Assembly (NCBI GenBank): GCA_030442055.1
Contig: JAUJEB010000004.1
Span: 496,001-560,000, forward strand
Direction of reading: 5' to 3'
Length of the DNA: 64,000 bases
Origin: Agaribacillus aureus
GTDB taxonomy: Bacteria > Bacteroidota > Bacteroidia > Cytophagales > Cyclobacteriaceae
Shown here: positions 2,133 to 21,967 of the stretch, piece after piece
How positions within the stretch are numbered: the stretch's first letter is position 1
Layout of the letters: every line of letters starts with the position of its first letter
Made by a program: the position numbers and the translations under genes
The notes under the pieces: model-generated
What the model saw: the letters and a program-made list of their open reading frames with translations, nothing else
Databases searched by the model: none
What the model was told of the DNA's origin: nothing

Positions 2133-2325
2133 CACCGCAAAATTAGCCTTCAACCTTTACACTTGTGAATTGCTGATACAGGTTAATTGAATTAGTATAA
2201 ACTTTATACCTTCTGAAACAGTATGTCTTCAGGTGCCTAAAAATCGATTTCATTTTTTATTCTCTCTTTCGTGGGGAAAAAAAATTCCAAATACCGAAAT
2301 TAACATCTCGCCAATTTAAAACAAC

Positions 2326-5844: not shown

Positions 5845-7218
5845 TTACTTATTCCAGATACCTGTCGCAGTACCATTCATTATCTTACGATATTGTATAA
5901 CTCTTAATACTATACTAATTGAAATGGAAACCATGGTCGCCATGATGACCCCGGTAGATCCGAGTCCGAAATTCCGGGCAAACAATATTGACAGTGGGAT
6001 ATTGACTGATATTGAAAACACCGCAGTCATCAGTTGCAATCTTAATTTACTTACCCCATTTATAAAATTCACAAATATCATATTAAACGAATTCATTAGT
6101 CCAAACAAGGCCATTGCCAGGGACAGCGAGAAGGGAACTATAATTTTGTCTCCTACCCAAAATTCATAAAAAGTGTCGGCCATTATCAACATTACAATGA
6201 CCGGCCCAATAAGCAGCAGCCAAAATTTCAAAAGTTTGCTTATTATATTTTTTATCCAATCAAACTCCTTTTTCTCATAGGCTTCCGTAAAGGAGGACCA
6301 AAAAGGGCTCATAACAATAGTAAATACCATCGTAGACATCCCAAAAAATTTATGGGCAATGCTGTAAGGTGTCACCTCAGCCGGGCCAAGCACTTGTGTG
6401 ATAATCATGTTATCGGTGGATAATAGAATAATGGCAGCCATTTGGAGGACAAAAAACTGTAACCCAAAATTCATCAGAGTTCTGGCATACTTAAAATCAA
6501 TGGATTTAAAGCTTGGTTTATAGGCCTTGTATTTTGTTCTGAATAAAATAACGCTGGTCAGGATAAAGACCAATACCGGTGCCGCTGATATGGTCGCACC
6601 TAAAAGTAACAGGGATCCTTCAGACGTATGGGTTAAAATGATGACTATTATGAGGGAGATAAACTGGCTGATGAGGTTCATCAGGTTATTGGCGGCGGGC
6701 CGCTGGTCTGCCAGTAAAATATTCCCAATTAATTTTAAAACAAATCTCAAGCAAAAAAAAGCGAACACAACGTAAGCCAACTGGTTAAGCTCACCCTCCA
6801 GCGCCGGATCGGCATTAAGAATTTCTGCCCAGTTAAGGAACGGATGAATGGCATTATAGATGAGGAACAGGCCCAGCATAATTATAAATATCAGGGCATA
6901 GGTGGTGCTGACGTAGGTCCTGGCCAAGTCGTGCTGATCCCTGGCAAGGGATACCGCAAATTTATTTCTCAACCCATTTCCCAAACCCACATCAAAGAAG
7001 GCGAACCATCCGATAACCGAGCTTAGGGTAAGCCAAATACCGTATTTGGTTTCATTCAGATACTCCAACGTCAACGGTACAAGATACAGCCCTATCAGGA
7101 TATTTAAGCCACGAATTCCCAGCGATGCAACAATATTTTTTTTTGCTTTTTGGCTGCGCTGATGTCCTTTTGTAAAAAATGATGATATTTTTCTAAAGAA
7201 AAATGTTAGATTGTTCAT
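5845..7218 (-). CDS. oligosaccharide flippase (Wzx/MATE-like)
   Basis: A 457-residue protein with about 12-14 predicted membrane helices, the size of Wzx flippases of the MOP superfamily. It starts with a short basic cytoplasmic stretch and a helix around IVASLGIRGLNILIGLYLV, as in polysaccharide biosynthesis proteins. It would move undecaprenyl-linked repeat units across the inner membrane before polymerisation. It lies between the BY-kinase and the sulfotransferase gene. A second flippase at 36275 serves another locus. Confidence 0.87.
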   Translation of the reverse strand: MNNLTFFFRKISSFFTKGHQRSQKAKKNIVASLGIRGLNILIGLYLVPLTLEYLNETKYGIWLTLSSVIGWFAFFDVGLGNGLRNKFAVSLARDQHDLARTYVSTTYALIFIIMLGLFLIYNAIHPFLNWAEILNADPALEGELNQLAYVVFAFFCLRFVLKLIGNILLADQRPAANNLMNLISQFISLIIVIILTHTSEGSLLLLGATISAAPVLVFILTSVILFRTKYKAYKPSFKSIDFKYARTLMNFGLQFFVLQMAAIILLSTDNMIITQVLGPAEVTPYSIAHKFFGMSTMVFTIVMSPFWSSFTEAYEKKEFDWIKNIISKLLKFWLLLIGPVIVMLIMADTFYEFWVGDKIIVPFSLSLAMALFGLMNSFNMIFVNFINGVSKLRLQLMTAVFSISVNIPLSILFARNFGLGSTGVIMATMVSISISIVLRVIQYRKIMNGTATGIWNK

Positions 7219-7296: not shown

Positions 7297-9768
7297 TTAC
7301 TCGTTTCCAGCCACCTCCTGAGGTTTTTTATGAGCAGATCCGTTCTGAAGGATAGTATTTTTTTTGCTTATTGGACTTTTTGATTTTTTGTTGGACTTAC
7401 CGTTTGACAGGTAACCGTAACCATAATTTATTTCTTTCAGTTTTACGTCATTCAAAATCATAGTAAGGTTCTTGATCTTCCGGTTTTTGTAGATTTCGTT
7501 GGCTTCTAATATTTGCTTTTTAAGCGTATAATTTTCCCTTACCACGTAAATATTGACATCACTTTTATCCATTAGCTCAAGTCCGTCTGATATAATGCCT
7601 ATGGGCGGTGTATCCAAAATGATGTATTCATATTCGTATCTGAACTCTTTCAACATTTTACCCATCCGCTCACTCAAGATCAGCTCGGTAGGATTTGGCG
7701 GAATGCCACCCGGAACAATCACATCTAAATTCTCATACATGGAGGATTGAACGACTTTTTCCTTGCTTGCAATACCGGCGAGGTAATCGCTTAACCCGAC
7801 ATTTTCCTCTACGCCAAAAATTGTATGATCATTGTACTTTCTCATATCACAATTGACGAGCAGTACTTTTTTCCCGTAGTTAGAGAATATATAGGCCAGG
7901 TTATTGGAGCAAAATGTTTTGCCCTCACCTGACATGGAAGAAGTGACCAACAAAATTTTCCCATGTTGGCTATCGTTCTCAACGAGATATCTCAGATTGG
8001 ATCTGATGGTTCTAAAAGACTCTGTCAGAGGTGATTTTGAATCTTCATTGGCCACAAAAGAACTGCCTTTCTTATTTTTTACCACCAGGCCTGACAATGG
8101 CAGACCCGACAGTTTAAGAAGTTCTTCTTTAGAACTGACTTTGTTGTTGAATATCTCAATTAACAGGATGACTATAGACGGAAAGACCAGGCCACAAATA
8201 ATCCCCATGCTATAATTCAGGCTGGGGCTGGGCTTCACAGGCAAGGTTCCTTTGATAATAGGATCGTCTACAATAACATAATCTTTGCTATTGGAGGCTT
8301 TGGCAATTCCCGCTTCCGCCCTTTTCTGCATTAAAAACAAGTACAGATCCTCACTTAAATCATAATTTCTTTGGATGTTGATCAACTCTCTTTCCGCAGT
8401 TGGCAGGTTTCTCACATAGTATTTTAACCCGCCGATGGAAGAATTTAAAGAATTAATCTTTACCTCATTTTTTTGTTTCAATCCCCTTATGCTTTCCAGG
8501 ATCGTACTTTTCAAGGCCCGTAGCCGGTCCTGGTTCTGCTTGATTAACGGGTTATTCAACTTTTTATCAGGATCAATGACATCTAAGTTAAGCTGAATGG
8601 CGGAGTACTCTTTCGTAGCCTCATTTAAGGTCCCGTCACTGATGCCTAGGGAAGAAGGATTAACCAGTTGACCACCCTGATCTGATAAAATAGATGACTC
8701 CAAATCTTTGAGATAGGTCATTTCAAGATCCAGAATAGATTTTTCTTTTTCCAGCTCACGCATGTCGCTGTACAAAGCGCTGCCATCATCATTAATATCC
8801 GTGGACCTGTTACTTTTTTTGAAGGTTTCAAGCCGCGCCTCAACGATATTCAGTGAGTCACTCATGTACAGGATCTGATTATCGATAAACTGGATCGTCT
8901 TACTGGCCCTTTCATTTTTTTGCGTAAGCTCGTTGCCAATATAATTTTGTATGAGCTGGTTGAGGAAGTCAATCAATTTAGCTGGTGTCGGTCCCTCGAT
9001 GGAAATTGATAAGATGGAGGATTTCTCGCCAACCGGACTGGTCCTCAAAGATCTTCTATATAGCTTTTTCAATCGCTCATAGGGTTGAGCGATAAATAAT
9101 ACTTTTTTCAGTTTTTTCTGACCGGGTTTAGGGGTTAAGATAACTTTAAACTTGAAACCCTTCATATCAACCACTTCACCGACAGCAAATACCTTACCCT
9201 GCAAGAGGGCGTTAAAAGCTTCCACTCTTTTATTCTTTTTAAATAACGACGACTTGGTGTCCACTACCTCGAGGGTGAAAGTAGAATCTTTATTGAGGTT
9301 AATTCTAATAGGAAGGCCGTTATATATCCTGGTGGAACTAGTATCTATCTCTACGGATAAGGGGCTCTTTTTATACAACTCAATGTTGTGAATGTCGCCT
9401 TCTTCAAAATAAGAAATATTAAGTTTTAAATCTCTTAAGGTTTTATCAATAAGGTTGTACGATTTGAATAAAATAGACTCATTCTCAAGATTGGTAGCAT
9501 TTCTACCAAAAAATTCTTCTCCATACAATAAGTCCGACACCGAGTTTGTGACCTCTTTGGGCGCCTTGATCAACAGCGAAGATTCGACAATGTAAATGGG
9601 TGTTGTATAGCGATTTAAACTAATTGCTATTAGTATACCGGCTATTACGGACACGAGTAACCATGGCCAACGTCTCCCGATTTTCACGAATACCTTCTTG
9701 AAATCCAGGTGTTTTTCCAAACCGTCTTCATGATCGGTTTTACTTTGGTTGTAATTATCCGTTTTCAA
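7297..9768 (-). CDS. polysaccharide co-polymerase fused to BY-type tyrosine autokinase (Wzc-like)
   Basis: An 823-residue Wzc-type protein that controls chain length and export. A Wzz domain (about 20-120) follows TM1 (34-50); a periplasmic coiled-coil and GNVR-like region (about 270-510) leads to TM2 (520-540). The cytoplasmic kinase carries Walker A SSMSGEGKT (610-618), Walker A' LLVNCDMR (636-643) and Walker B YIILDTPP (715-722). The tail has only three clustered tyrosines (782, 784, 786), followed by about 37 Lys/Ser-rich residues. The start is TTG: no in-frame ATG precedes it before a stop, and AGGAG lies 8 bases upstream. It is the first gene of the assembly half of the cluster. Confidence 0.92.
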   Translation of the reverse strand: MKTDNYNQSKTDHEDGLEKHLDFKKVFVKIGRRWPWLLVSVIAGILIAISLNRYTTPIYIVESSLLIKAPKEVTNSVSDLLYGEEFFGRNATNLENESILFKSYNLIDKTLRDLKLNISYFEEGDIHNIELYKKSPLSVEIDTSSTRIYNGLPIRINLNKDSTFTLEVVDTKSSLFKKNKRVEAFNALLQGKVFAVGEVVDMKGFKFKVILTPKPGQKKLKKVLFIAQPYERLKKLYRRSLRTSPVGEKSSILSISIEGPTPAKLIDFLNQLIQNYIGNELTQKNERASKTIQFIDNQILYMSDSLNIVEARLETFKKSNRSTDINDDGSALYSDMRELEKEKSILDLEMTYLKDLESSILSDQGGQLVNPSSLGISDGTLNEATKEYSAIQLNLDVIDPDKKLNNPLIKQNQDRLRALKSTILESIRGLKQKNEVKINSLNSSIGGLKYYVRNLPTAERELINIQRNYDLSEDLYLFLMQKRAEAGIAKASNSKDYVIVDDPIIKGTLPVKPSPSLNYSMGIICGLVFPSIVILLIEIFNNKVSSKEELLKLSGLPLSGLVVKNKKGSSFVANEDSKSPLTESFRTIRSNLRYLVENDSQHGKILLVTSSMSGEGKTFCSNNLAYIFSNYGKKVLLVNCDMRKYNDHTIFGVEENVGLSDYLAGIASKEKVVQSSMYENLDVIVPGGIPPNPTELILSERMGKMLKEFRYEYEYIILDTPPIGIISDGLELMDKSDVNIYVVRENYTLKKQILEANEIYKNRKIKNLTMILNDVKLKEINYGYGYLSNGKSNKKSKSPISKKNTILQNGSAHKKPQEVAGNE

Positions 9769-9776
9769 ATTATTTA

Positions 9777-9781
9777 CTCCT
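9777..9781 (-). promoter_or_regulatory. Shine-Dalgarno AGGAG deciding a TTG start
   Basis: On the minus strand AGGAG sits 8 bases before the TTG at 9768. In-frame sequence upstream has no ATG before the stop at 9796-9798. Strong Shine-Dalgarno sites are uncommon in Bacteroidota, so this supports the TTG as the start of the co-polymerase/kinase gene. Confidence 0.6.
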
Positions 9782-9970
9782 ATTGGGAAATTATTCTAAC
9801 TTAAAATTGAAGGTCCACCCACAGACAGGTTAGTTTTTATCAGGACGATAACGTAACTACTACCCGGAATCCTGCTTCCTGATATAAAAGTATGAAATAA
9901 CCCTTAAAATTAATAAATTATTTTAATATTATTTGGAATTATTTCAAGATTTTAATGTCTATGCACTATT

Positions 9971-11005
9971 TTACCCGATATGCTTGTACATCACATTTCC
10001 AATCATCTTAAGCATCCACAAGGGCATTTTACTAAAATACTTCTCTTTACTGCGATGTATTTGGCCGTAACTTGATTTGGTTTTGCTTTCCAGATTAATT
10101 TTATGATAGTCAAGCGTTCCAACCTGGGTGCCCCATCCCTTCTTAAATTGATGAAGACCTGTATTGTGCATGGCCGTACGTCCAAAGCAAAACACCTTCC
10201 AGGTAGACCCGGCGTAAAACTTTATTATTTCATTTATCAGGGCATTGTTTGGCCGGAATTGCTGATAACGATAGTCTTGCGCCAGGTATTTCATCAGTAC
10301 CTGCCCTCTAAAATGAAAAACTATGCCCATGGAAATTACGTCGCCATTCAGTTTTGCCACAAAAATGTTTCCCAGCCCCTTCTCTATGATATGCTCATAA
10401 ATTTTCATATAAAAAGCCAACGGAGCCGGTGGGACACCATTTTTCTTTTTGTTCTTACAGTTTAGCTGATAAAATTTGGTGATAAGTTCCCTGGTATTCT
10501 CCCGCACCACCTGAATATTGTTTTTGACGGATTTTTTAATATTCATGCGGTTCTTTCTGTTAAATGTTTTTAATATCTCTTCATAGGGCGGTTCGAGATT
10601 AATCTGATGTACATAATAGGAATCTGATACCAAATCCTGGGACTTAGGGCAGTTTAATCCTCTGAACTCAACGGATTTCCAACCATTTTTTCTTCCGAAA
10701 TCCATGATATCCGATATGATGGCTTTGGTGTCGAAGCCCTCCTCCAGTAACACCGGGCAGTAGTCTGAAAAAGGCAAGGAAACCCCTCTTTTCCCCGTCA
10801 AAAAACTATCAATGCCGACAATAGGTATTACGCCAACGACCTTTTCTCCGTCAAAGACCCCAAAATAATTTGCCTTGTAGCCATAACATTCTTCCAACAC
10901 CTGGTACCAGTTGACTGTATGAAAAATACTGCCGCCTAATTCTTTGATAATATTATTCCAGTTATCTACCTGTGCAGGATTCAAAATTTTTACTTCGTAT
11001 CTCAT
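9971..11005 (-). CDS. FemAB-like GNAT-fold transferase, copy 1
   Basis: A 344-residue protein of the FemAB-like double-GNAT type. Members relevant here are those found with exosortase-type exopolysaccharide clusters. Visible conserved parts are the N-terminal GYKANYFGVFDGEKVVGVIP, RGVSLPFSDYCP, a central RKNRMNIKKSVKNNI and the C-terminal FRPNNALINEIIKF and FKKGWG segments. It is clearly paralogous to the protein at 18078-19115, sharing RGVSLPF and a YKHI C-terminus. FemAB proteins transfer aminoacyl groups and GNATs acyl groups, so it could attach an activated residue to the glycan; that is inference. It ends the tailoring half, 11 bp from the SGNH gene. Confidence 0.8.
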   Translation of the reverse strand: MRYEVKILNPAQVDNWNNIIKELGGSIFHTVNWYQVLEECYGYKANYFGVFDGEKVVGVIPIVGIDSFLTGKRGVSLPFSDYCPVLLEEGFDTKAIISDIMDFGRKNGWKSVEFRGLNCPKSQDLVSDSYYVHQINLEPPYEEILKTFNRKNRMNIKKSVKNNIQVVRENTRELITKFYQLNCKNKKKNGVPPAPLAFYMKIYEHIIEKGLGNIFVAKLNGDVISMGIVFHFRGQVLMKYLAQDYRYQQFRPNNALINEIIKFYAGSTWKVFCFGRTAMHNTGLHQFKKGWGTQVGTLDYHKINLESKTKSSYGQIHRSKEKYFSKMPLWMLKMIGNVMYKHIG

Positions 11006-11016
11006 TTGTGTGTATT

Positions 11017-12048
11017 CTAAAGGCTACCTTCGAGGTCGGTATTTACCTTATTATAAAAATTGAATAACTCCTTAGCCACCAGGTCATGTCCCTTATCTAC
11101 AAAGTGAACATCGTGTTTGAAATAATCACTAACCTGTAAAAACTGGCTTAAGTCTAAAAAATCTATAGTGCCCTGCTTGCAGACATCTACAACAAAATCG
11201 ATATTTTTTCTGTCGTTTTTAATCAGCTCTTCCCGAAAGGGTATAATTACCACACCAAATTTGGCTCCCGAATCACGTACTTCCTGATTCAGCTGCAGGA
11301 TTAGCTCACGGGTAACCTCATACCGGTATTTTGACGAGCCTTTGGATTCGGTTTTATTATCTGTGGAGATTTTTACATTCATACGCGATTCCAAAAGATT
11401 TTTGATAAAAAATATCGCATGTGAGTGCTCATATAGCCATCTTTTGAAAGTCAGATACCTCACTTTCAACCAGCTGGCGTCATTTTTGGGAAACTTCAGC
11501 TTGCCATCCTTATCCAAATACGCAAAAGATTTTCTTAAATTGTCGGTATAATCATTTCCGGTATAAAATAACAGCCAGACATATTCGGGTTTTACCGCAT
11601 CTTTAAACTTCCGGAATGCCAGCAGTTCCTGAGCGGTAGAATAGCCTTGGGAGCCTAATGCCACTACCTGTATGTCGGGGTTTTCACGCTTTTGAAGGAT
11701 GTTTTCAAATCGCTCGTGAAAGATCAGCTCGTAGTCCATTTCCAGGCTTTCTACGAACGAGTCTCCCAGTAAAACAATTCTTTTTCCACTTGACGATGCC
11801 CCATCGAAATCATCGTCCCTGAATCCAAGGTTATTATAGCGGTAGGAAGACCGTATTTTATCCTTGTTACGTACGTAAACGCCTTCGCCGAAGGGCTTAC
11901 CTGTCCAACCCAGCTCCTTATCATAGGCGGCTAACCTTTTCGTTTCCTGCTCCACAAAGAGTCTGACCATCACCTCTCCTAATATCAATGCAATAGCAAT
12001 GGATATGAAGAACAAAAGCAAGTTTGATTTTACATTTGCAAATTTCAT
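11017..12048 (-). CDS. membrane-anchored SGNH/GDSL-family protein
   Basis: A 343-residue protein with one N-terminal membrane segment (about 8-30) and an outward SGNH domain. Block I is IVLLGDSFVE with Ser97, a later YTGNDYTDN matches the oxyanion-hole Asn block, and the C-terminal HDVHFVDKGHDLVA supplies Asp and His. SGNH enzymes hydrolyse esters or act as O-acetyltransferases; in exopolysaccharide clusters they usually add or remove acyl groups on the polymer in the periplasm. Direction of reaction and substrate are unknown. A 266 bp gap lies upstream, so it may have its own promoter. Confidence 0.78.
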   Translation of the reverse strand: MKFANVKSNLLLFFISIAIALILGEVMVRLFVEQETKRLAAYDKELGWTGKPFGEGVYVRNKDKIRSSYRYNNLGFRDDDFDGASSSGKRIVLLGDSFVESLEMDYELIFHERFENILQKRENPDIQVVALGSQGYSTAQELLAFRKFKDAVKPEYVWLLFYTGNDYTDNLRKSFAYLDKDGKLKFPKNDASWLKVRYLTFKRWLYEHSHAIFFIKNLLESRMNVKISTDNKTESKGSSKYRYEVTRELILQLNQEVRDSGAKFGVVIIPFREELIKNDRKNIDFVVDVCKQGTIDFLDLSQFLQVSDYFKHDVHFVDKGHDLVAKELFNFYNKVNTDLEGSL

Positions 12049-12314: not shown

Positions 12315-13259
12315 TCAATTATTTATGTTTTTATCACCCGGCTCTACTTCATCCCTCCAAAATCCTGCCACATCTCTTGGTATGGCATTCCAAAATTGAT
12401 CCGAATATTGCTTATTAATATACATTAACAATTCCTCATACATATTAACTGGGAACTCTTCCATACCTACCTTATCACGATCAAATGCCAGATAATCGGG
12501 ATGTACATTCACCAAAACCATACCTCCTTTTGCAACAATCCAATCCACTTTTTTCTTCCAGATATCGATTGTCCTTTCCCTCATTAAAACATATGGCGTA
12601 AAATCCTGCGACACAGTATAGGGCAGCTCCACATATCCTTTTCCATTTTTTGCTACCCAAAAAGGAAAAATAGTTTCTACCCCGTCAGACTGTGGTTCAA
12701 ATGGATCCGTATCAAAGGTAGACAGATCGTATTCAATATGGAGGTCGTGTATCCAATCCAGGTTATGATGCATCGCCGGTGCCCTGAAACCAACCACTTT
12801 CCAATCCCTGATATATTCATTGATCTTTTTTGCCCTTTCCACGAATATTTTTCTGGATTGAAACAATTTTCCGTCATGGTTTAAGCCGTGAACTCCCACC
12901 TCAAACCCATTGGCCTCCAAATTGCTTCTCAGGACCGGAGACACCTGGTATCTTTCCGGAACAAAATTAAAAGACGAAACAAAACCATGTTTTTGCTCCA
13001 ATGCCATCAGTGATTTACAACGATCATGGCCCTTTTGCAATTCAACATCGTGTGTAAGCACCACAGCAAACTTTTTCCCCTCCGGCCAGCCTCTGAAATA
13101 CGGAGGCTTTTCCCCGGCTTTTTCCAATATTGGCCAGGAATCGCGATACTTAGGCAGTTTATATAATATCAGCTTTCTCCTCAACAAAAGCTGTAAGCTC
13201 CTGGGGATCAACGGCTTTAATCCGTAGAAAATGGTATTGATCAATTTGGACTTGTCCAT
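12315..13259 (-). CDS. polysaccharide deacetylase-family protein (NodB fold)
   Basis: A 314-residue protein with NodB-type motifs: VVLTHDVE (motif 1, Asp base and metal Asp), VGVHGLNHDGK (motif 2, metal His residues) and VGFRAPAMHHNLDW (motif 3). The family removes N-acetyl groups from polysaccharides; some members in exopolysaccharide clusters act on the lipid-linked unit. No clear signal peptide is visible, so it may work in the cytoplasm. Downstream of the AAC(3)-fold gene, it could expose an amine that a later transferase acylates; this link is inference. Confidence 0.8.
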   Translation of the reverse strand: MDKSKLINTIFYGLKPLIPRSLQLLLRRKLILYKLPKYRDSWPILEKAGEKPPYFRGWPEGKKFAVVLTHDVELQKGHDRCKSLMALEQKHGFVSSFNFVPERYQVSPVLRSNLEANGFEVGVHGLNHDGKLFQSRKIFVERAKKINEYIRDWKVVGFRAPAMHHNLDWIHDLHIEYDLSTFDTDPFEPQSDGVETIFPFWVAKNGKGYVELPYTVSQDFTPYVLMRERTIDIWKKKVDWIVAKGGMVLVNVHPDYLAFDRDKVGMEEFPVNMYEELLMYINKQYSDQFWNAIPRDVAGFWRDEVEPGDKNINN

Positions 13260-13315: not shown

Positions 13316-14230
13316 TTATTTATGATAAGCCGAACGACCGTCTATAGCCGCCGCAATTAGTTTTTCCTGTACTGCTTTTGCCCGGGCGTAAAATAAGTCC
13401 ACTCCTGAATATCTCCATTCAAACAGATCCTGTTTGTTTAATATTTTCCTTACCATCGGATGTAATTTTCGTTGATAACCGGACTTATCCGGGTGTAACA
13501 ACGAATAGGGAATAGCCTCCTCATCACCTGAGATTAAGGATATCGGGATTTGAATGGATTCAAATTTGGTAGGATACCTATCTGTTTCGATTAAAACATC
13601 TTCCACCGAATGTGTTTGGGTCATGCAATGAAAATATCGCACACCCAATCCAAGGATTACAGTATTATCCTGTGACATTTTATCAAACGGACTACCTTTG
13701 CCACATCCTGTCTTGCATAACTCATGTCCGCTTGTCAGGTATTTAGCCTTTGGACCAAGGGCACATACGCGATGAGTTGGATGTTTACTGACGCTGACGC
13801 CAGGATAGTTACGAAAAATTTCCGTGAGCACCCCCATTTGAGATGGCATCTTGTCCACATAAAAATCCGGCCTGTCGGCAAAGTATCGTCTCACATCATA
13901 GTTGTAGGTTCTACCTCCAAAAAAGAAGGCCGGCATCGCCAGCGTTTTTTCCGGGCCGCAAAGGGAAATCAATAACTCCAATAATTCTTTTGGGCTCCCT
14001 TTGTACATAGGCAACATAGTGTTAAAAGAGCTATGCACCATCAAAGTATCAAAATCAGCCGGCAATTTTTTCTCTAATTCTTCCTTAAGATCCTGAGGAG
14101 AAAAGTTGCCATATCGTTTTTCCTTGAACGGGTGCAGCTTCTTTTCAAGATCGTATTTCACCATTTTTAACTTGTTACGAGTTTTTTGGTTAAATACATT
14201 TCTTAGCAGGTAGTAAATTTTTGCTTTCAT
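13316..14230 (-). CDS. AAC(3)/YokD-fold N-acyltransferase
   Basis: A 304-residue protein of the aminoglycoside 3-N-acetyltransferase fold. Motifs are LMVHSSFN, TLAMPAF, SKHPTHRVCALGPKA and TQTHSVED, the last holding the conserved His. In sugar clusters these enzymes acylate amino sugars or nucleotide sugars, not antibiotics. It is 1 bp from the deacetylase-like gene at 14232 and follows a carrier-protein and adenylation pair in the same block. It is therefore one of the candidates for moving the carrier-bound acyl group onto a sugar amine; nothing in the sequence proves the donor. Confidence 0.82.
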   Translation of the reverse strand: MKAKIYYLLRNVFNQKTRNKLKMVKYDLEKKLHPFKEKRYGNFSPQDLKEELEKKLPADFDTLMVHSSFNTMLPMYKGSPKELLELLISLCGPEKTLAMPAFFFGGRTYNYDVRRYFADRPDFYVDKMPSQMGVLTEIFRNYPGVSVSKHPTHRVCALGPKAKYLTSGHELCKTGCGKGSPFDKMSQDNTVILGLGVRYFHCMTQTHSVEDVLIETDRYPTKFESIQIPISLISGDEEAIPYSLLHPDKSGYQRKLHPMVRKILNKQDLFEWRYSGVDLFYARAKAVQEKLIAAAIDGRSAYHK

Positions 14231-14231
14231 C

Positions 14232-15326
14232 TCAACTGGTTACCTCCTCTTTAAACGATTGCAGATCAAAGTCCCCAAATTTGGCAAAACAATATTTATC
14301 CGGATTGGAGGCAATAAAATCCAGAAAAGGCGCTAAACTCTTCTCGTTGATTTTTGTGAATATTTTGGAATGTCCAATCAGTACCACCGGAAGTTTTTTC
14401 TCCAGATGGCCATATTGCCTGTCGATTCGTTTCAGCCCCCTGATCAATTGAGTCCCCGTGCATTGGTTAAAATCAAATTTCCAGGCGTGCTTATCGGTAA
14501 AAAATGACATTAGCTTCGAAAATTTTGAGGCGTTGTTTTGCGCCGCCGGCTCTTGCTCCTCCATATCCGGCTCATCGTATTTCGCGTGCTTGTGCTGACT
14601 TGCCTGGAATACCCTGAACACCCTGTTAGGCGTTAAAAATGCCCATACATTTTTCAATTCAGTATAAATCGGGATTTCGACCAGCTCGCCGTCAGGATCT
14701 TTTTTGCAAACATCCAGGACATCAACGGGCCAGGGCAATAAATCGCTGTGAGAATGGGTATAATCAAACTTGACCCTGTCGTTGCGTTTTCCATACTTGA
14801 AAACTGAGGTATCAATATTGATGCCTTCTTCTATCAATGCTTTTACAATGTTTTGGGACGGACTCATTGACCAGTTTGCGGCTCTGAAAGCATGGCAACG
14901 GTAGGTACTATCCACTGCTGTCAGCAATGACTCCAGGTAAGCCTTGCAGGTTTGAATCATTTCCTTCACCCGCTGATAAGGCAAGTCGGCCAAACTGTAT
15001 TCATCCCAGTGCTGCTGCCACCGCCCATCTACCAGCTTCGATTTAAAGTAGGATGAATGTATGTGAAGCTGAACGTCATGACCTGTCGCAATAGCTCTTT
15101 TAAGCTGCTCCTCGATCTTGAGATAATCAAAGGTATCTTTCCCCGTAGCTTCAAAGTGCTCCTTGAACTTTAATATTTCGGCCACATCTGCCATAATCGT
15201 TAATTTGGCACCGTATCGATCAAATTGTTCCAACATTCGATCGGTTGGTGCCACCATCAACTGGTAAGGCGACCCCTCGCCATTGCCGTGTATTTCGTAA
15301 TCCAAGGTAAATAGGTTTCCAAGCAT
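14232..15326 (-). CDS. polysaccharide deacetylase-like protein (WalW-like)
   Basis: A 364-residue protein that starts directly with the fold's first strand (LFTLDYEIHGNG). Residues near 95 (HDVQLHIHSSYF) hold a His pair like motif 2, and CHAFRAANWSMSP is like motif 3. It matches the description of WalW-type proteins found in exopolysaccharide clusters and has no signal peptide. The typical metal Asp of motif 1 appears as LDYE, so deacetylase activity is not certain. It sits 22 bp after the DUF354 gene and touches the AAC(3)-fold gene, consistent with one transcript. Confidence 0.72.
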   Translation of the reverse strand: MLGNLFTLDYEIHGNGEGSPYQLMVAPTDRMLEQFDRYGAKLTIMADVAEILKFKEHFEATGKDTFDYLKIEEQLKRAIATGHDVQLHIHSSYFKSKLVDGRWQQHWDEYSLADLPYQRVKEMIQTCKAYLESLLTAVDSTYRCHAFRAANWSMSPSQNIVKALIEEGINIDTSVFKYGKRNDRVKFDYTHSHSDLLPWPVDVLDVCKKDPDGELVEIPIYTELKNVWAFLTPNRVFRVFQASQHKHAKYDEPDMEEQEPAAQNNASKFSKLMSFFTDKHAWKFDFNQCTGTQLIRGLKRIDRQYGHLEKKLPVVLIGHSKIFTKINEKSLAPFLDFIASNPDKYCFAKFGDFDLQSFKEEVTS

Positions 15327-15348: not shown

Positions 15349-16395
15349 TTATGCTTCTACCAGCTTTATTACTTCCTTGACAATCTTTTGCAAGGCCGGG
15401 CTTTGCTCCTTCAAAGCGGCAGCGGACCTTTCGCGCTTCTTTAATATTACCTTATTTTCAATATCTTCTTCCGATCTGATTAGAGAAAGGCGTCCGGATT
15501 CCTCCAGGTAACGATCAACGGCTCCTATTTTTCCGCCGAAAATGCTGTACGAGGGCACTCCCAGCGCGGCTGACTCCCTAATCATGGTTCCACCTCCACT
15601 GATCACCAGGTCGGAATACCAGACCAGGTTTAACCCATTCAACACTTTATCGGGAATGACAATACGTCCGTTTTCGATGTATTCTTTATATTTTTCCTTA
15701 ATGCCTGATTCCTGATCTTTGGTTCTGGGCAGAATAACCATTTTGGTATTTTCATTTGCCAACACGCGTTCCATTGTTTTTTCAAATAATTGATCGCTCA
15801 GATCGGTATGATAATGGGCGGCGGTGGCCGGAGGTCTCACCGAAACTACGATGTGATCTTCGTTGATATTTAAGTAAGACAATATAGACGGATCAGGCCG
15901 TAAATTCTGTATGTAAACATCTTCTTTGATACCCGGGAATCTGGCTACTTTTTTAAAATATTTGTTGGTAAAAGATTCAGGCATTACCTCCGGAACAATC
16001 CCAAGTGTCGGAAGTAGCAACGGAAATTCGGCCGAATGTTCATAATCGGTAGCAACTGCAGATTTCATTCCTATTAAACTGGCAAACAAGAATTGCGATC
16101 TCGATCCGTGTGACAAGGCCAGATCAGGCCTTTCCTTAACAAAAACAGGTAACATCTGCAATGCCCTGAACAGCACGCCAAAAGTTTTGAGAATTTTATT
16201 TTTCCCGAAGTGCTTGCCCAGGGGTTTATAGTCAAATTGAAAATAATCAGCCAAACCAATTGCCTGAGCATAGTCTCTGACAGTAATTAAAACTTCATAA
16301 TCCTTCTTCCTTAACTCGTTAATAATCGGATTAAAAAAAGGAATATGCGGTGAATTGTCGAGGTCTATCCAGATTTTTTTGTTTTTTCTTGCCAT
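15349..16395 (-). CDS. DUF354 protein, GT-B-like fold
   Basis: A 348-residue protein with the hallmark start IWIDLDNSPHIPFFNPII and the segments PDLALSHGSRSQ and YEHSAEFPLLLP. The C-terminal half has SDLVISGGGTMIRESAALG, like the donor site of UDP-GlcNAc 2-epimerase/MurG folds. DUF354 proteins occur in exopolysaccharide and archaeal glycan clusters; they are presumed glycosyltransferases or epimerases, but no activity is established to my knowledge. It lies between the adenylation enzyme and the WalW-like gene, inside the tailoring run. Confidence 0.82.
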   Translation of the reverse strand: MARKNKKIWIDLDNSPHIPFFNPIINELRKKDYEVLITVRDYAQAIGLADYFQFDYKPLGKHFGKNKILKTFGVLFRALQMLPVFVKERPDLALSHGSRSQFLFASLIGMKSAVATDYEHSAEFPLLLPTLGIVPEVMPESFTNKYFKKVARFPGIKEDVYIQNLRPDPSILSYLNINEDHIVVSVRPPATAAHYHTDLSDQLFEKTMERVLANENTKMVILPRTKDQESGIKEKYKEYIENGRIVIPDKVLNGLNLVWYSDLVISGGGTMIRESAALGVPSYSIFGGKIGAVDRYLEESGRLSLIRSEEDIENKVILKKRERSAAALKEQSPALQKIVKEVIKLVEA

Positions 16396-16420: not shown

Positions 16421-18007
16421 TTATTGGACGGATTCTTTTACCAAAGTCGGTTTATCAATTTTGCCGGTGGAAGTTTTTGGCAAGCTTTGCCTGAACTCGA
16501 TTATTTCAGGCACCATGTATTTTGGGATTTTTTCAGCACAAAACACCCGGACATCACCTGCTTCCAGTGATTGCCCTTCCTTTAGGGTGATGACAGCCTT
16601 TATCCTGTTGCTGATTAAATCATCGGGAATGGCAATTACTGCCGCCTCACTTATCATGGGATGTGTATAAAGCGCTGCCTCAATTTCTCCAATCTCAATT
16701 CTATATCCGCGGCTTTTTATCATATGATCCACGCGCCCCACATAAATGTAATCATCGTCTTCATTCAACGTAACCAGATCTCCTGTTTTATATATTTTTT
16801 CCTGAAAGTTTGGCTGAAAAGTATTTGGAACAAAAACCTTGCTGGTCCTGTCGGGATCACCCCAATAACCCTGTGCTACGCAGGTGCCCCTACCCATCAG
16901 TTCACCTTCTTCACCTGGCCTGGTAACAATTTTTCCCTCTTTGGTAACGGCAAAAACATCTGAATTTTCACAACACTTTCCAATGGGGATTGGCTGGCTC
17001 TGGCCTTCGGGAATTGCCCTGGTACGATAATAAGTAATGACGTTTGTTTCCGTTGGACCATACAGGTTAATATATTCCTTGCCAGGCACTAAATTCATTA
17101 ATTCCCTCAGATATTTTACAGGGAATACTTCTCCGGCAAATATGATCATGCGCATATTTGAAAAATCCCGCTGATCCAATTGGCCATGCATCACCATCAT
17201 CGATAAAATAGAGGGCACTGAATACCAGACAGAAATACGATGATCCTGTATCCATTTTGACAGCCTGGATGGAAATATGGACAAGGTTTCCGGCACCGGG
17301 CATAAAGTGCCGCCGACTTTAATACAGCAAAAAATATCCAGGATGGACAGATCAAAATGCAGTGGTGCGTGGTTTGAAAATATATCTTCGCCATTTACCT
17401 TTAAATATGCTACAACCCAGTTAATAAAGGTCAATGCATTCAGATGCGAGATCATGACGCCCTTGGGATTGCCTGTAGAACCGGAGGTATACAGTATATA
17501 GGCAAGGTCTGTTGAGATACTTTTGATCGTCGGCGATCCGGCGTTTCCATCTGCCAAAACCTGTTCCCATAACACTAATTTTCTGTCAATATCGGGCGAA
17601 ATCTCATTCCTGCTATCTGTGACTACTACCATTTCCACAACAGGTGCCACAGCCAGGACCTCCGGAAGTTTATTGGCTTTTTCAGAAGAGGTGAGCAGAC
17701 ATTTTATCTGGCAATTCTCAATAATATAGGAAATTCTGGCACTTGGTGCCTGCGGGTCGAGAGGTACGTAGACGGCGTTGGCTTTGAGTATGGAAAATAT
17801 CGAAATAATAGATTCTGCCGATTTATTCAGATAAATACCTACCCTGTCGCCGGGCTCAACACCATTATCAACCAAAAAGTTAGCCAGCCTATTGGTCTTA
17901 TCCTCGAGCTCGCCATAGGTGACCTTGTCGTTCCCAAATACCACGGCGTCTTTGGCAGGATGGCTTTTAGCGCTATCGATCAATAATTGCTGAAGTACGT
18001 AACTCAT
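16421..18007 (-). CDS. stand-alone amino-acid adenylation enzyme (predicted L-prolyl-ACP ligase type)
   Basis: A 528-residue AMP-forming ligase. Core motifs are YTSGSTGNPKG (173-183), the A4 core FDLSILDIF (218-226), YGPTE (316-320), YKTGD (406-410), GRVDHMIKSRGYRIE (424-438) and the A10 Lys516 in STGKID. Aligned on GrsA-A, the pocket reads D219, L220, L223, Y262, I289, A291, L315, V323, I324, K516. Asp219 indicates an alpha-amino acid substrate rather than a fatty acid. The code is close to the one I remember for the prolyl ligases PltF and RedM. There is no fused carrier or condensation domain; the partner is presumably the carrier protein at 19165, two genes upstream. Family call certain, substrate inferred. 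Confidence 0.88.
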   Translation of the reverse strand: MSYVLQQLLIDSAKSHPAKDAVVFGNDKVTYGELEDKTNRLANFLVDNGVEPGDRVGIYLNKSAESIISIFSILKANAVYVPLDPQAPSARISYIIENCQIKCLLTSSEKANKLPEVLAVAPVVEMVVVTDSRNEISPDIDRKLVLWEQVLADGNAGSPTIKSISTDLAYILYTSGSTGNPKGVMISHLNALTFINWVVAYLKVNGEDIFSNHAPLHFDLSILDIFCCIKVGGTLCPVPETLSIFPSRLSKWIQDHRISVWYSVPSILSMMVMHGQLDQRDFSNMRMIIFAGEVFPVKYLRELMNLVPGKEYINLYGPTETNVITYYRTRAIPEGQSQPIPIGKCCENSDVFAVTKEGKIVTRPGEEGELMGRGTCVAQGYWGDPDRTSKVFVPNTFQPNFQEKIYKTGDLVTLNEDDDYIYVGRVDHMIKSRGYRIEIGEIEAALYTHPMISEAAVIAIPDDLISNRIKAVITLKEGQSLEAGDVRVFCAEKIPKYMVPEIIEFRQSLPKTSTGKIDKPTLVKESVQ

Positions 18008-18077
18008 TGTAGAAAATAAAATTTTTTACTAACCTTAATATTAACCCACAAAGCCCTCCTGACTATTTTAACCGGCT

Positions 18078-19115
18078 TCAGGCAATATGCTTATATGCCA
18101 GATTACCGGCAAGTTTTAATAATGGATTGGGCATATTTCTGAAGATTGAATTGTGAAAGCCCTCCACCTGATCATGACTTTCGACATATTGATTTTCTTT
18201 AATACTATATTTGTAATAGCCTACCTCTCTCTCCTCCGCCCCCCAGGCCAATTTAAACCTGCGTAGCCCGTCGTTGTTCGTGGTGGTTTTGCCAAGACTC
18301 ATATTTTTTAATCCTTTTTCATAGGCGCTGTCCATAGCTTGCCAAAACATGGCGTAGTTATGCCTTTTTTTCTTATAATTGAAATCGGAGGCGCCATATT
18401 TGTAAATAATATGATCTCCAAAATGCAGAAAGACACCGCTGGCAACCACCTCGCCTTCAAAGCAGGCATTTACGACGAAACCCAGGTCTTTTTGAATAAT
18501 TAGCTCATGCAGTTTCCGGAAGAAATTTAAGGGCTGGGGGGGTAATCCATGCCGTTTCCTGGTTAGGCAATTAAGATTATAAAAGGCCTCTATTGCTTCC
18601 AGGCTTTGAGAAGTTTCACTTGTGATGCCTTCTCTAACCGACCTGTTAATGTTTCTTCTGGTAGCTCCCTGTAATTTCTTAAGCCATTCTTCTGACTTTG
18701 CGGCAACAACCGGCAGGCGGTGCTCATAAAAAACCGAAGAAGGCGTGGTATCATCACCAAAAAATCTATCCCCTCCCCTGACCTCGATATATTTCCAGCG
18801 GTTTTTTTTGGCATGTGTTCTGACGGCTTCTAAAAGCGACTCGAAAACCTTTTCATCGCGAACCAAAGGCTCACAGGTATCTGTAAAAGGTAGTGACACG
18901 CCACGTCTGCCGGTAATAAAACTATCAACCTCCAGAACAGGCAGAACCCCAACGAATTTGTTACCTTCCGTTAAAGTAAAATACAGCGGCTTGTACCCAT
19001 AAGCTTCACACAAAACCTGCGCCCAGTTTGAGGAATAGAAAATCGAATACCCTTCAAATTCAAGCATTCGCTCATTCCAATCCGGAATCGCTCTTGGGTC
19101 AACAATTTCAACCAT
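18078..19115 (-). CDS. FemAB-like GNAT-fold transferase, copy 2
   Basis: A 345-residue paralogue of the protein at 9971-11005. Shared segments include GYKPLYF, RRGVSLPFTDTCE, a KLQGATRRNINRSVREG loop where copy 1 has RKNRMNIKKS, KKRHNYAMFWQ and a C-terminal AYKHIA. The gene lies between the carrier-protein gene and the adenylation gene, so it belongs to the same transcript and is the transferase nearest to the carrier. A role in passing the carrier-bound aminoacyl-derived group to a glycan amine or hydroxyl is plausible, since FemAB relatives transfer aminoacyl groups, but this is inference. Confidence 0.8.
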   Translation of the reverse strand: MVEIVDPRAIPDWNERMLEFEGYSIFYSSNWAQVLCEAYGYKPLYFTLTEGNKFVGVLPVLEVDSFITGRRGVSLPFTDTCEPLVRDEKVFESLLEAVRTHAKKNRWKYIEVRGGDRFFGDDTTPSSVFYEHRLPVVAAKSEEWLKKLQGATRRNINRSVREGITSETSQSLEAIEAFYNLNCLTRKRHGLPPQPLNFFRKLHELIIQKDLGFVVNACFEGEVVASGVFLHFGDHIIYKYGASDFNYKKKRHNYAMFWQAMDSAYEKGLKNMSLGKTTTNNDGLRRFKLAWGAEEREVGYYKYSIKENQYVESHDQVEGFHNSIFRNMPNPLLKLAGNLAYKHIA

Positions 19116-19164
19116 ACCAATACTGTTTTATCGAATAGATCAGATTTTTCCAGAAATGCCCCGC

Positions 19165-19419
19165 CTAGGCAATTTTTTTCTCAACCAATGATGTAATGGC
19201 ATCGATCGATGAGAAATTTTCGGGTACCAGTTCCATATCATCTATTTGTACAGACATATTGTCTTCTAAAAATCCAATCAGTTTCATAATTCCCAAAGAA
19301 TCGATAACGCCCGACTCGATGAGTTGATCACTGTCGGAAAGCGCTTGATGGTCCTTGTTATTTACCAGTTCGGTCTTAATATAATTTCTAATTGATTCTT
19401 TAATTTCCATGTTCTCCAT
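19165..19419 (-). CDS. acyl/peptidyl carrier protein
   Basis: An 84-residue stand-alone carrier protein. The phosphopantetheine site is Ser41 in GVIDSLGIMKL. Helix I (KESIRNYIKTEL) is longer and more basic than in fatty-acid ACPs, resembling small carrier proteins that work with free adenylation enzymes such as the prolyl carriers of pyrrole biosynthesis. It lies between a dehydrogenase and the FemAB/adenylation genes, as a carrier holding a substrate while it is oxidised would. An Sfp-type phosphopantetheinyl transferase is needed but is not in the window. A second possible ATG 9 bases downstream (19410) would shorten it by three residues. Confidence 0.9.
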   Translation of the reverse strand: MENMEIKESIRNYIKTELVNNKDHQALSDSDQLIESGVIDSLGIMKLIGFLEDNMSVQIDDMELVPENFSSIDAITSLVEKKIA

Positions 19420-19556
19420 CTAAAATATTGTGCTAAAAATCCTGAAACCTTTTCCGTTAATAATTAAATTACTTATTGAAATAATCTAATTTTCGGCAAA
19501 TTAGTTCTATTATCTGATAATATCAAACTAAATTAAACAATTTGTAACTGTAATAA

Positions 19557-20717
19557 TTAAATGGGAAGACCTTCAAATTTTGCGATGGTATTCCTAAGCG
19601 TTTCCGAGGTTCCCGACCATATGTTAAAAGAGAGGCTATCTCTTAAATCCTGATTGATAAAAGACTCCAATAAATATCCTCTTACCCCAAATATTTGCAT
19701 GGCATCCATTTCAAATTGAATGAAATTATCGCTGACAAAAAGTTTAGCGATCGCCGCATCCTGGGCACAGGCATGCATTGATTTACCACTGGCCAATTTG
19801 GAAGCAAGATCATAAATCACCTGGCGGCTCAGCCTTTGTCTCATTACCATATTGGCAATTTTGGAAGAAATCTGCTGATAGGAGCCGATGGGTTTATCAA
19901 ATTGATTTCTTGTCTTGACTCGTTCAATGCATTCCTTCAGGCCTCTGTTCATAGGACCAAGCGCACTGGAAATCAACACTGCCCGCTCCCAGCCAGTGGA
20001 TTCTGTTAAAACCCTCAATCCAAGACCTTTTCTTCCGATGATATTCGATTTAGGCACTAATACATTGTCAAAGACCAGCTCGCCCATTCTTACCGTCCTT
20101 AATCCGATTTTTTCAAATTCGCGACCATGAGAGGCTCCTTCCGTATTCATGTCTACTAAAAAGGCAGTAAGGCTAAACGGGCTCCTGTCCGGTGAGGTTT
20201 TGGCAAAGACAATGGCTAAATCGGCATAAGGTGCATTGGTTATATAACATTTTTTACCATTGATCCGATAGCTATCCCCTTCTTCAGTGGCGGTGGTTTC
20301 CATCGAATAGGCATCACTTCCGGAAGTTTCTTCCGTAAAACCATAGGCGCCAAGCCTGTTGCCACTGATCATTTCCGGCAAAAAAGTTTCCTGCATTTCT
20401 CGGCTAGCAAATTGGCTGATTGTCAATTGGATGCCGCAGAGTTGGTTGCCAAGCGCATAGACAAATCCGCCATCCCGGCAGGCCTCGCCAAACCCTTCAA
20501 TGGCAGCTACCACATGTGTCACCGGCACCTCGTTCCCTCCAAAGTCGGTGGGCATCATCATTTTTAAAAGGCCAATTTCTGCCGCTTTTTTCCAGCGCTC
20601 CAGCGAAAAATCGCCGGTTTTATCTCTTTCAGCAAAATTTCCTGAGAAGTGATCAATGGCTAGTTGGTAATACTCTTCCTTAATTTTATCAATTTCGGGG
20701 TCTTCCCAAGGTTGCAT
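19557..20717 (-). CDS. acyl-CoA dehydrogenase-fold flavoprotein, isovaleryl/prolyl-carrier type
   Basis: A 386-residue FAD enzyme with the acyl-CoA dehydrogenase fold: GFTEETSGSDAY (126-137) is the flavin/substrate loop and FEKIGLRTVRMGEL precedes the beta domain. The usual catalytic Glu of IYEGT is replaced by Ser368 (NIWSGT). Glu244 in GWERAVLISSALG stands where isovaleryl-CoA dehydrogenase keeps its base. As I recall, the prolyl-carrier dehydrogenases of pyrrole formation use this same position. Beside a carrier protein it is therefore predicted to oxidise a carrier-bound substrate. It is 14 bp from the next dehydrogenase gene. Confidence 0.88.
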   Translation of the reverse strand: MQPWEDPEIDKIKEEYYQLAIDHFSGNFAERDKTGDFSLERWKKAAEIGLLKMMMPTDFGGNEVPVTHVVAAIEGFGEACRDGGFVYALGNQLCGIQLTISQFASREMQETFLPEMISGNRLGAYGFTEETSGSDAYSMETTATEEGDSYRINGKKCYITNAPYADLAIVFAKTSPDRSPFSLTAFLVDMNTEGASHGREFEKIGLRTVRMGELVFDNVLVPKSNIIGRKGLGLRVLTESTGWERAVLISSALGPMNRGLKECIERVKTRNQFDKPIGSYQQISSKIANMVMRQRLSRQVIYDLASKLASGKSMHACAQDAAIAKLFVSDNFIQFEMDAMQIFGVRGYLLESFINQDLRDSLSFNIWSGTSETLRNTIAKFEGLPI

Positions 20718-20731
20718 AAGATTGATTTATA

Positions 20732-21967
20732 TTACCAATAAGTTTCTGAGGGTTTGCTAAGATCTGCCCCAAAAGCGGCCTTTCCCAAATAAGAAAGGCA
20801 ATCATCGCTGGTAGCAGGCATCAGGCCGGCGCATCGGGAGTCGCGGTAATATCTTTCGAGCGGAAGTCTTTTTGCCAGGCTGCTGGCACCGCACATCCGG
20901 ATGGCCTGGGAAGACAACCATGGTCCTAATTCACTCACCAAATACTTAGCGTGGTGAATCGCATTGTTGGCTTCCTGAGATCCTAATTTTTCTTTGACCA
21001 GTCTGGCCGCATTATAAGTAATCCCCCGCGCTGATTCCAAGGCGGAATATAATTCGCCCATTCTATACTGAATAGTGGGATCTTCGCTCATCGATGTATC
21101 TGTTCCGGGTATTTTTTTCTTCTTCAGGAATTCTACCAGAAATTGGAAAGTCGCGACGCTAATCCCAAGGTAAACACCGATGTAACCGCCAACTAACCAG
21201 TGAGGTTCACGGGCAATTTTATATAAGGCCATGCCTTCACTACCTAAAAACAATGCCTCTTTAGGTACAATACAGTTTTCGAAATACACAGGGTTGGTGG
21301 CCGTAGCACGCATTCCCAGCACATCCCAAATCTCTTCTATTCTGGTACCGGGATTTTCTTTTTCAACAACCAAATAGGATATAGCGGGTACTTCACTCGT
21401 ACTCTCGGCAGACTTGGCAGCAACTACATAATAATCGGCATAGCCAGCCATGGATACAAAAGATTTAACACCGTTGATAGCAAAGCCTTCGTCTACACGT
21501 TGGTAGGTTGTCTTGAGCTTACTAAAATGTGCGCCAATGCCCGGTTCAGAAGACGCTGAGGCAAATACCTTTTTCTGATTGATCGACTGATCGTAAACCC
21601 AGTCTCTGAATTCTTTCATCACCTTACCCCTGCTACCGCCAATTCCTTCCAGCTTAAGTTCCGCAATACTACCTACTGCAATGTTATGCATATTAAAAGT
21701 AAGGGCAGTTGACGAGCATCCCATGGCCAATTGTTCCAGCGCCTTTGTATAGGTGAGAAAATCCGCCCCAAAACCGCCAAATTCCTTAGGTATCATAATA
21801 CCCAGCAATCCTGCTTCCTTCAGATCTTCAAAATTTTCTACGGGAAAACTTCCCTCTTTGTCGTATTTTGGCGCTCTTTTGGCAAATACCTCTTTTAGTT
21901 GACGGCATTTTTCGATGATTTCTTCTTTTTCTTCGATGCTGGGTTCAGCGATACCTATATCTATCAT
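20732..21967 (-). CDS. acyl-CoA dehydrogenase-fold flavoprotein, divergent
   Basis: A 411-residue member of the fold and probably the first gene of the tailoring run. The N-terminal helical domain has GIMIPKEFGGFGADF; the middle domain has ASASSEPGIGAHFS and WDVLGMRATATNPVYF. The helix-G Glu of the isovaleryl type is absent (REPHWLVGGYIGVYLG), and at the C-terminus the IYEGT site reads LMPATSDDCLSYLGKAAFG. With both usual base positions lost it may act as an oxygenase or oxidase like group D flavin enzymes, or use another base. It pairs with the 386-residue dehydrogenase 14 bp downstream. Substrate unknown. Confidence 0.8.
   Translation of the reverse strand: MIDIGIAEPSIEEKEEIIEKCRQLKEVFAKRAPKYDKEGSFPVENFEDLKEAGLLGIMIPKEFGGFGADFLTYTKALEQLAMGCSSTALTFNMHNIAVGSIAELKLEGIGGSRGKVMKEFRDWVYDQSINQKKVFASASSEPGIGAHFSKLKTTYQRVDEGFAINGVKSFVSMAGYADYYVVAAKSAESTSEVPAISYLVVEKENPGTRIEEIWDVLGMRATATNPVYFENCIVPKEALFLGSEGMALYKIAREPHWLVGGYIGVYLGISVATFQFLVEFLKKKKIPGTDTSMSEDPTIQYRMGELYSALESARGITYNAARLVKEKLGSQEANNAIHHAKYLVSELGPWLSSQAIRMCGASSLAKRLPLERYYRDSRCAGLMPATSDDCLSYLGKAAFGADLSKPSETYW

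Follow-up and report, generated by a model that had tools for sequence, protein, structure and literature searches.

An exopolysaccharide operon of Agaribacillus aureus with a built-in gene set of the carrier-bound proline-oxidising type

Thiotemplated oxidation of proline is known from small antibiotics and metallophores, and one may ask what genes of this kind would be doing within a polysaccharide locus. The question is raised by a stretch of 64,000 nucleotides from Agaribacillus aureus (contig JAUJEB010000004.1, positions 496,001 to 560,000; hereafter the window), whose genome measures 9.39 Mb in 36 contigs. A minus-strand gene set, transcribed from position 21967 to 16421 and heading towards Wzc-, Wzx- and Wzy-type genes (Table 1), codes for a stand-alone adenylation enzyme, a small carrier protein and two proteins of the acyl-CoA dehydrogenase (ACAD) fold. 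A preliminary description, made from the letters alone, had reported an adenylation/carrier/ACAD trio together with FemAB-like and AAC(3)-fold genes near Wzx/Wzy/Wzc, and had likened the trio to pyrrole-forming sets. All of these open reading frames are in place with Pfam support, and the pocket residues, the best solved relatives and the catalytic Glu agree with a trio of the PltF/PltL/PltE- and PigI/PigG/PigA-like kind. The second ACAD-fold gene in the same range, here termed ACAD2, had gone unmentioned. The set is real, conserved and, as judged by sequence, of the proline-oxidising type, and it is built into an exopolysaccharide operon; we hold the chances to be even that it provides the polymer with an acyl group, perhaps an N-hydroxylated one.

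The binding pocket of the adenylation enzyme is of the proline type, its core lying nearest to PltF and then to PigI. In a phmmer search this core matches PltF at 132 bits (61/118 residues identical), PigI at 84 bits and the best DltA at 74 bits. With the whole enzyme, PltF (340 bits) is the top chain with a single matched stretch, and it is outranked by multidomain nonribosomal peptide synthetase (NRPS) chains that sum several matched stretches. With positions assigned by GrsA numbering, its ten pocket letters read DLLSIALVIK, and those visible in the alignments read DLLSLALVC in PltF and DLFSIAWVC in PigI. A DltA-like reading was rejected for its weaker pocket match, and the DltA models of NCBIfam are not reached either (299/560 bits for TIGR01734, 307/476 for another). 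In a tree built with a quick method, the window enzyme belongs to a set of 16 rows, none of them from an NRPS context (support 95), and 26 of the 27 NRPS-context rows fall in a different set. The enzyme probably takes a proline-type substrate.

The carrier protein has its attachment Ser in a GVIDSL site, and its solved relatives include PltL and PigG. The other ACAD-fold protein, ACAD1, carries the helix-G Glu announced in the preliminary description, which is E244 within W-E-R; in the 6af6 alignment, Ala stands where 5zw0 carries this Glu. A seven-row ACAD1 profile places three carrier-proline enzymes first, namely 4irn (508 bits), 5zw0 (418 bits) and 6cxt_B (412 bits), above the isovaleryl-CoA dehydrogenase 4o5m (359 bits). 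Here, 4irn is a prolyl-ACP (acyl carrier protein) dehydrogenase that we take to be AnaB, 5zw0 is a prolyl-carrier dehydrogenase, and 6cxt_B is presumably of Bmp3 type. With the single sequence, 4irn (239 bits) and 6cxt_B (214 bits) lead. The identity of ACAD1 to the three enzymes is about a third (120/377, 123/370 and 113/345). In a tree built with the same quick method, ACAD1 groups with the proteins of loci L116-L119 and of the Woeseiaceae locus L026 (support 100). Judging from these relatives and the retained Glu, ACAD1 is likely to oxidise the ring of a carrier-bound prolyl group.

ACAD2 lacks such a base. Leu258 occupies the place of the helix-G Glu of ACAD1, and Pro384 that of the C-terminal Glu of short-chain dehydrogenases. 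Two-component monooxygenases of the ACAD fold are an established group, some of them N-hydroxylating, according to the part of the literature account available (PMC6165268). Of 196 genomes sampled from the family, 7, from 4 genera, have the adenylation enzyme (E up to 1e-120), and precisely these 7 have ACAD2 (E up to 1e-60); as these genomes are kin, they do not represent seven independent cases. The presence of the Glu-less ACAD2 in the same genomes as the adenylation enzyme suggests that the product may be N-oxygenated or hydroxylated, not plain pyrrole-2-carboxyl. We lean slightly towards ACAD2 oxygenating the prolyl group. In relative G553 (L118, 1565-2466), the ACAD2 gene is split over two frames, reflecting sequencing error or decay.

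Genes related to ACAD2 occur in comparable company in Streptomyces. The closest plasmid matches are Streptomyces genes located between a RedW-type ACAD gene and a flavin reductase gene, preceded by hydrolase, adenylation and carrier genes; the Streptomyces relative matches at 38% over 90% of the window ACAD2 and has a REPHW motif. When 295 Streptomyces genomes were surveyed with the ACAD2 profile (E up to 1e-75), 15 had matches. Among the 14 loci with the REPHW motif (L159, L177-L189), a PltE-type ACAD gene lies beside ACAD2 in 11 (L159, L177-L186), 10 of which also have a clear adenylation gene (the match in L185 reaches only 34 bits), and a flavin reductase gene is present in 9 (L159, L177-L184). 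L187 and L188 have an adenylation gene with ACAD2, L189 has ACAD2 alone, and none of these partner genes was found at the distant, motif-less matches of the survey (L160-L162, L190). The cassette in L127 (11078-17083) and its relatives in L159 and L177-L184 consist of adenylation, carrier, ACAD, ACAD2 and flavin reductase genes, mostly with an alpha/beta hydrolase gene, and a PanD-like gene follows in L127, L128 and 4 of the 9 survey loci (L159, L177-L179).

In the chalkophomycin route, as outlined in the available part of the published account, ChmJ loads proline on ChmI, the Glu-less ChmG N-oxygenates prolyl-ChmI, and the Glu-bearing ChmH makes the N-hydroxypyrrole (PMC10849742). Compared with this account, the Streptomyces cassette has the same functional parts as chmF/J/I/H/G, and the window has all of them except the hydrolase: beside the adenylation enzyme and the carrier there are a Glu-bearing and a Glu-less ACAD. 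By analogy, the window set may work like this N-hydroxypyrrole route, with ACAD2 as a candidate counterpart of ChmG. The chalkophomycin cluster itself was sought in genome G724, where the flanks turned out to be those of an NRPS-type locus (no family scan was made for an SznF homologue).

Is the set more than a chance neighbour of the polysaccharide genes? From ACAD2 to the gene at 12315 the intergenic gaps measure 1-137 bases, with gaps up to 266 and 202 bases further on. The 12-gene order from ACAD2 to Wzc is identical in the relatives L116 and L117. Given these small gaps, the repeated order and the identical 7 of 196 genomes, the gene set is more than a chance assembly. L119 keeps the ACAD2, ACAD1, carrier, adenylation, 364-residue-protein and AAC(3)-like genes without those for FemAB and DUF354, and polysaccharide neighbours are seen there again. 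In L118, three genes (one ATP-grasp-type, one PS_Dcarbxylase-type, one unassigned) separate the carrier gene from the adenylation gene, and only a weak FemAB-like piece of 81 residues (25 bits) is present, at the contig end; L120 and L122 are ended by contig ends. A search of the window for large NRPS-type adenylation genes, not extended to polyketide synthase genes, gave none.

Farther afield, a wider phylum sample of 395 genomes has ACAD1-like proteins (E up to 1e-60) in 7 and ACAD2 in 1, the A. aureus genome being counted in both. The preliminary description had called for a co-occurrence check in other genomes, and ACAD1-type genes do occur there with polysaccharide genes: among the best 80 of 543 confirmed ACAD1-profile loci, 9 have at least two polysaccharide-type genes, 30 have a large NRPS-type gene without such a pair, and 41 have neither. 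The polysaccharide-context label was assigned with few seed proteins and required at least two polysaccharide-type genes, and under it L118, L122 and L123 are labelled "other". A single clade for the exopolysaccharide context was rejected, as the label requires 8 changes on the ACAD1 tree (none of 500 shuffles was as low); on the adenylation tree it requires 10 (31 of 500 shuffles as low). In the Woeseiaceae locus L026, adenylation, carrier, ACAD2 and, on the opposite strand, ACAD1 genes lie by glycosyltransferase, heparinase-like, sulfotransferase and Wzy_C genes. The Microvirga plasmid NZ_CP069356.1 (L126) has a carrier-adenylation-ACAD1 trio by matches of glycosyltransferase, sugar-transferase and Wzc type, some of them weak, and is likely a further polysaccharide context. 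Geobacter L102 (7757-16341) is a polysaccharide locus with FemAB, deacetylase, carrier, ACAD and adenylation genes beside sugar genes and with no ACAD2 match, and its carrier and ACAD genes are separated by a gene of the arginase family (PF00491); Geobacteraceae loci of this type perhaps serve a different acyl group for the polysaccharide.

Two proteins are candidate acyl transferases. In the window and in L116 and L117, the first FemAB-like gene (FemAB1) is enclosed by the set. L119 and L120 have the AAC(3)-like gene as well, and it is adjoined by the gene for the 364-residue protein in the window, L116, L117, L119 and L120, the two being one gene apart in L152 and L153. This companion was one of two genes for which a deacetylase fold had been proposed. 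Neither Pfam (E up to 0.1) nor NCBIfam (E up to 1e-5) gives a match for it, and the proposal was dropped in its case, with no profile match to the deacetylase set and a poor single-sequence model (mean predicted local distance difference test score 40). For the other gene, the proposal holds to the extent of matches below cut-off.

From family closeness, gene order, co-occurrence and the catalytic residues kept or lost, we infer the following course. L-proline or a close cyclic amino acid would be loaded by the adenylation enzyme on the carrier. ACAD2, drawing its reduced flavin from a reductase encoded at another locus, would oxygenate the prolyl group, most likely at N, and ACAD1 would dehydrogenate the ring by means of Glu244, giving a pyrrole-type acyl-carrier (N-hydroxypyrrole-2-carboxyl or a partly oxidised form). 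The FemAB-like or AAC(3)-like transferase would then place the acyl group onto an amino sugar within the repeat unit, ahead of Wzx/Wzy/Wzc export. On the evidence of gene order, it is reasonably likely that the acyl group ends on the polysaccharide. The most specific form of this proposal, an exopolysaccharide bearing hydroxamate-like, metal-binding N-hydroxypyrrole-2-carboxyl groups that a prolyl N-oxygenase and a prolyl dehydrogenase would form on a dedicated carrier, with the FemAB- or AAC(3)-like enzyme as the transferase, is tentative and on balance doubtful; if true, it would mean a metal-chelating coat polymer built by antibiotic-pathway chemistry. More broadly, proline oxidation that decorates a polysaccharide would connect two fields; a new substituent of the polymer would be expected, one that might bind metal or be redox-active, and a role for FemAB-like transferases in exopolysaccharide loci would become directly testable. 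No polysaccharide decoration of such kind was found described in the literature, as searched by title and abstract start with most subscription journals outside the search.

A number of observations weigh against this course of events. With the single ACAD1 sequence, 4o5m (208 bits) ranks between 6cxt_B and 5zw0 (204.5 bits), and ACAD1 stays below the NCBIfam equivalog cut-offs for RedW (288/650 bits) and PigA (304/500 bits). Given these missed cut-offs and the identity of about one third, ACAD1 is a relative, not a RedW or a PigA. Pocket position 331 of the adenylation enzyme is Ile, and Cys in both PltF and PigI. By sequence and by fold (Foldseek), ACAD2 is matched best by ordinary short-chain acyl-CoA dehydrogenases; 3m9v, an N-oxygenase chain that we take to be KijD3, scores 126 bits versus 167 for the top matches. 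In the fold search, made with a model whose alignment held mostly ACAD1-type rows, 5z8t, "Flavin-containing monooxygenase", appears at rank 24, and the ranking does not clearly tell oxygenase from dehydrogenase. No flavin reductase (PF01613) was found in the cluster, and two are coded elsewhere in the genome. The Glu place of ACAD2 is Leu in the window and L026, Met in L127 and 13 of the 14 REPHW survey rows, and Thr in L189; it is Met in ChmG, according to the available part of that account. The REPHW type of ACAD2 was found in none of 24 Lentzea genomes (E up to 1e-50), all 10 matches being of another type, and this search speaks against orthology of ACAD2 to ChmG; the ChmG homologue of the chalkophomycin paper comes from a Lentzea, of a species possibly outside the 24 (PMC10849742, available part). 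In L149 (8793-11247) and L150 (6398-8835), ACAD2 (57-58% identical) is paired with ACAD1 in stretches where adenylation, carrier and polysaccharide genes were not found, and in genome G410 the ACAD pair (L149) is separate from the adenylation-carrier pair (L121). FemAB1 was not found in the L119 stretch, and distant AAC(3)-like genes (48 and 50 bits) occur in two polysaccharide loci that lack the set (L152, L153), which leaves two candidates for the transferase. The case for the AAC(3)-like gene as a specific partner of the set is weakened by these two loci, 2 of 6 distant matches examined, in which it is accompanied by a relative of the 364-residue protein.

These points bear on three alternatives. 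The first is a plain pyrrole-2-carboxyl tag, the proposal of the preliminary description, with a different task for ACAD2, such as ring-carbon hydroxylation, amino-sugar oxidation or the second two-electron step. The PltF-like pocket and the relatives of ACAD1 are consistent with it, as is the likeness of ACAD2 to short-chain dehydrogenases; however, both known Glu bases are missing in ACAD2, and ACAD2 accompanies ACAD1 even in L149 and L150, and the cassette in the majority of the Streptomyces loci (ACAD1 in 11 of 14). A sugar is thus a less likely target of ACAD2 than the acyl-carrier on which ACAD1 would act, and we regard the plain tag as unlikely. Under the second alternative, the adenylation enzyme would take a non-proline acid (pipecolate, D-alanine or another small amino acid), from which the ACADs would make an unsaturated or hydroxylated acyl group. 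Besides Ile at position 331, the pockets of related Geobacteraceae loci speak for it: L102, L034, L041 and L055, with carrier, ACAD1 and adenylation genes, have DLFSHS[IV]SSK, and DMFSLAMSSK is a further type, so that this adenylation subtype seems to vary its substrate. Yet 8 of the 9 visible pocket positions, all but 331, are common to PltF and/or PigI, and the pocket core scores far lower against DltA than against PltF (74 vs 132 bits), which makes a non-proline substrate distinctly unlikely. Under the third, which we consider very improbable, the set would yield a free small molecule and owe its place in the operon to chance or shared regulation only. In its favour, the separate pairs of G410 lie away from recognised polysaccharide genes, and L127, the Streptomyces locus searched, has no annotated glycosyltransferase or Wzx/Wzy within 15 kb (but DegT and Gfo/Idh genes). 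Against it, the set is embedded and syntenic in the window and in L116 and L117, in all three of which it encloses a transferase gene, and polysaccharide neighbours recur in L119 and L026.

Table 1. Genes of the window discussed here, in order of transcription.
Feature	Position	Strand	Evidence
ACAD2, ACAD-fold flavoprotein without catalytic Glu; proposed flavin-dependent monooxygenase on carrier-bound prolyl group	20732..21967	-	L258, P384 at known Glu places
ACAD1, carrier-bound prolyl dehydrogenase-like	19557..20717	-	Pfam ACAD domains; catalytic Glu E244
Carrier protein, 84 residues	19165..19419	-	PF00550, 22.1 bits vs cut-off 20.8; GVIDSL site, Ser41
FemAB-like (GNAT-fold) transferase, FemAB1; candidate acyl transfer enzyme	18078..19115	-	PF02388, PF13480; between carrier and adenylation genes
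Stand-alone adenylation enzyme, PltF-like	16421..18007	-	PF00501/PF13193; pocket DLLSIALVIK
DUF354 protein	15349..16395	-	Pfam
Conserved 364-residue protein, fold unassigned	14232..15326	-	Conserved beside or near AAC(3)-like gene in relatives
AAC(3)-like acyltransferase (Antibiotic_NAT); alternative transfer candidate	13316..14230	-	PF02522
Polysaccharide-deacetylase-like protein	12315..13259	-	Sub-cut-off only: PF01522 E 0.0063; TIGR03006 E 8.5e-7
SGNH/AlgX-like protein	11017..12048	-	Sub-cut-off Pfam matches
Second FemAB-like protein	9971..11005	-	Pfam, NCBIfam
Wzc-like chain-length/kinase protein	7297..9768	-	
Wzx-like flippase	5845..7218	-	
Sulfotransferase	4910..5833	-	
Group 1 glycosyltransferase	3572..4813	-	
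Wzy_C-type polymerase/ligase	2326..3564	-	
Group 1 glycosyltransferase	942..2153	-	

A second trio is coded elsewhere in the same genome (L011, C23:655000-673000; ACAD 10464-11612, adenylation gene 8855-10429, carrier 8607-8846), with an adjoining NRPS gene; its pocket reads DIMLLGVQCK, and its ACAD has Asp where ACAD1 has the helix-G Glu. Asp is found at this place in 14 of 92 ACAD1-type rows, all 14 labelled NRPS context. The second ACAD1-like protein groups in the tree with a Cytophagales metagenome-assembled genome.

Several known systems resemble parts of the locus. The XrtA/PEP-CTERM exopolysaccharide loci unite a related ligase (TIGR03098), FemAB (TIGR03019) and deacetylase (TIGR03006) in one cluster, but the window proteins stay below all of these NCBIfam cut-offs (ligase 351/592, FemAB 131 and 122/260, deacetylase 28/276 bits) and exosortase PF09721 has no match in the genome; the exosortase link was therefore rejected. 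DltA-DltC also consists of an adenylation enzyme and a carrier, and decorates a polymer; to our knowledge, ACADs have no place in that D-alanylation route. The Streptomyces cassette (NZ_CP109577.1, NZ_CP108874.1) shares with the window an ACAD2 relative, with REPHW, and the same partners; its flavin reductase gene adjoins ACAD2, and glycosyltransferase and Wzx/Wzy genes are not annotated in the stretches shown. Compared with the chalkophomycin route, the window is a polysaccharide locus and its set has no hydrolase gene. With PltF-PltL-PltE, PigI-PigG-PigA and RedM-RedO-RedW the window shares a stand-alone adenylation enzyme with a near-identical pocket, a small carrier and an ACAD with the helix-G Glu; it departs from these pyrrole-forming sets in missing the RedW and PigA cut-offs, in its second ACAD-fold enzyme and in its polysaccharide surroundings.

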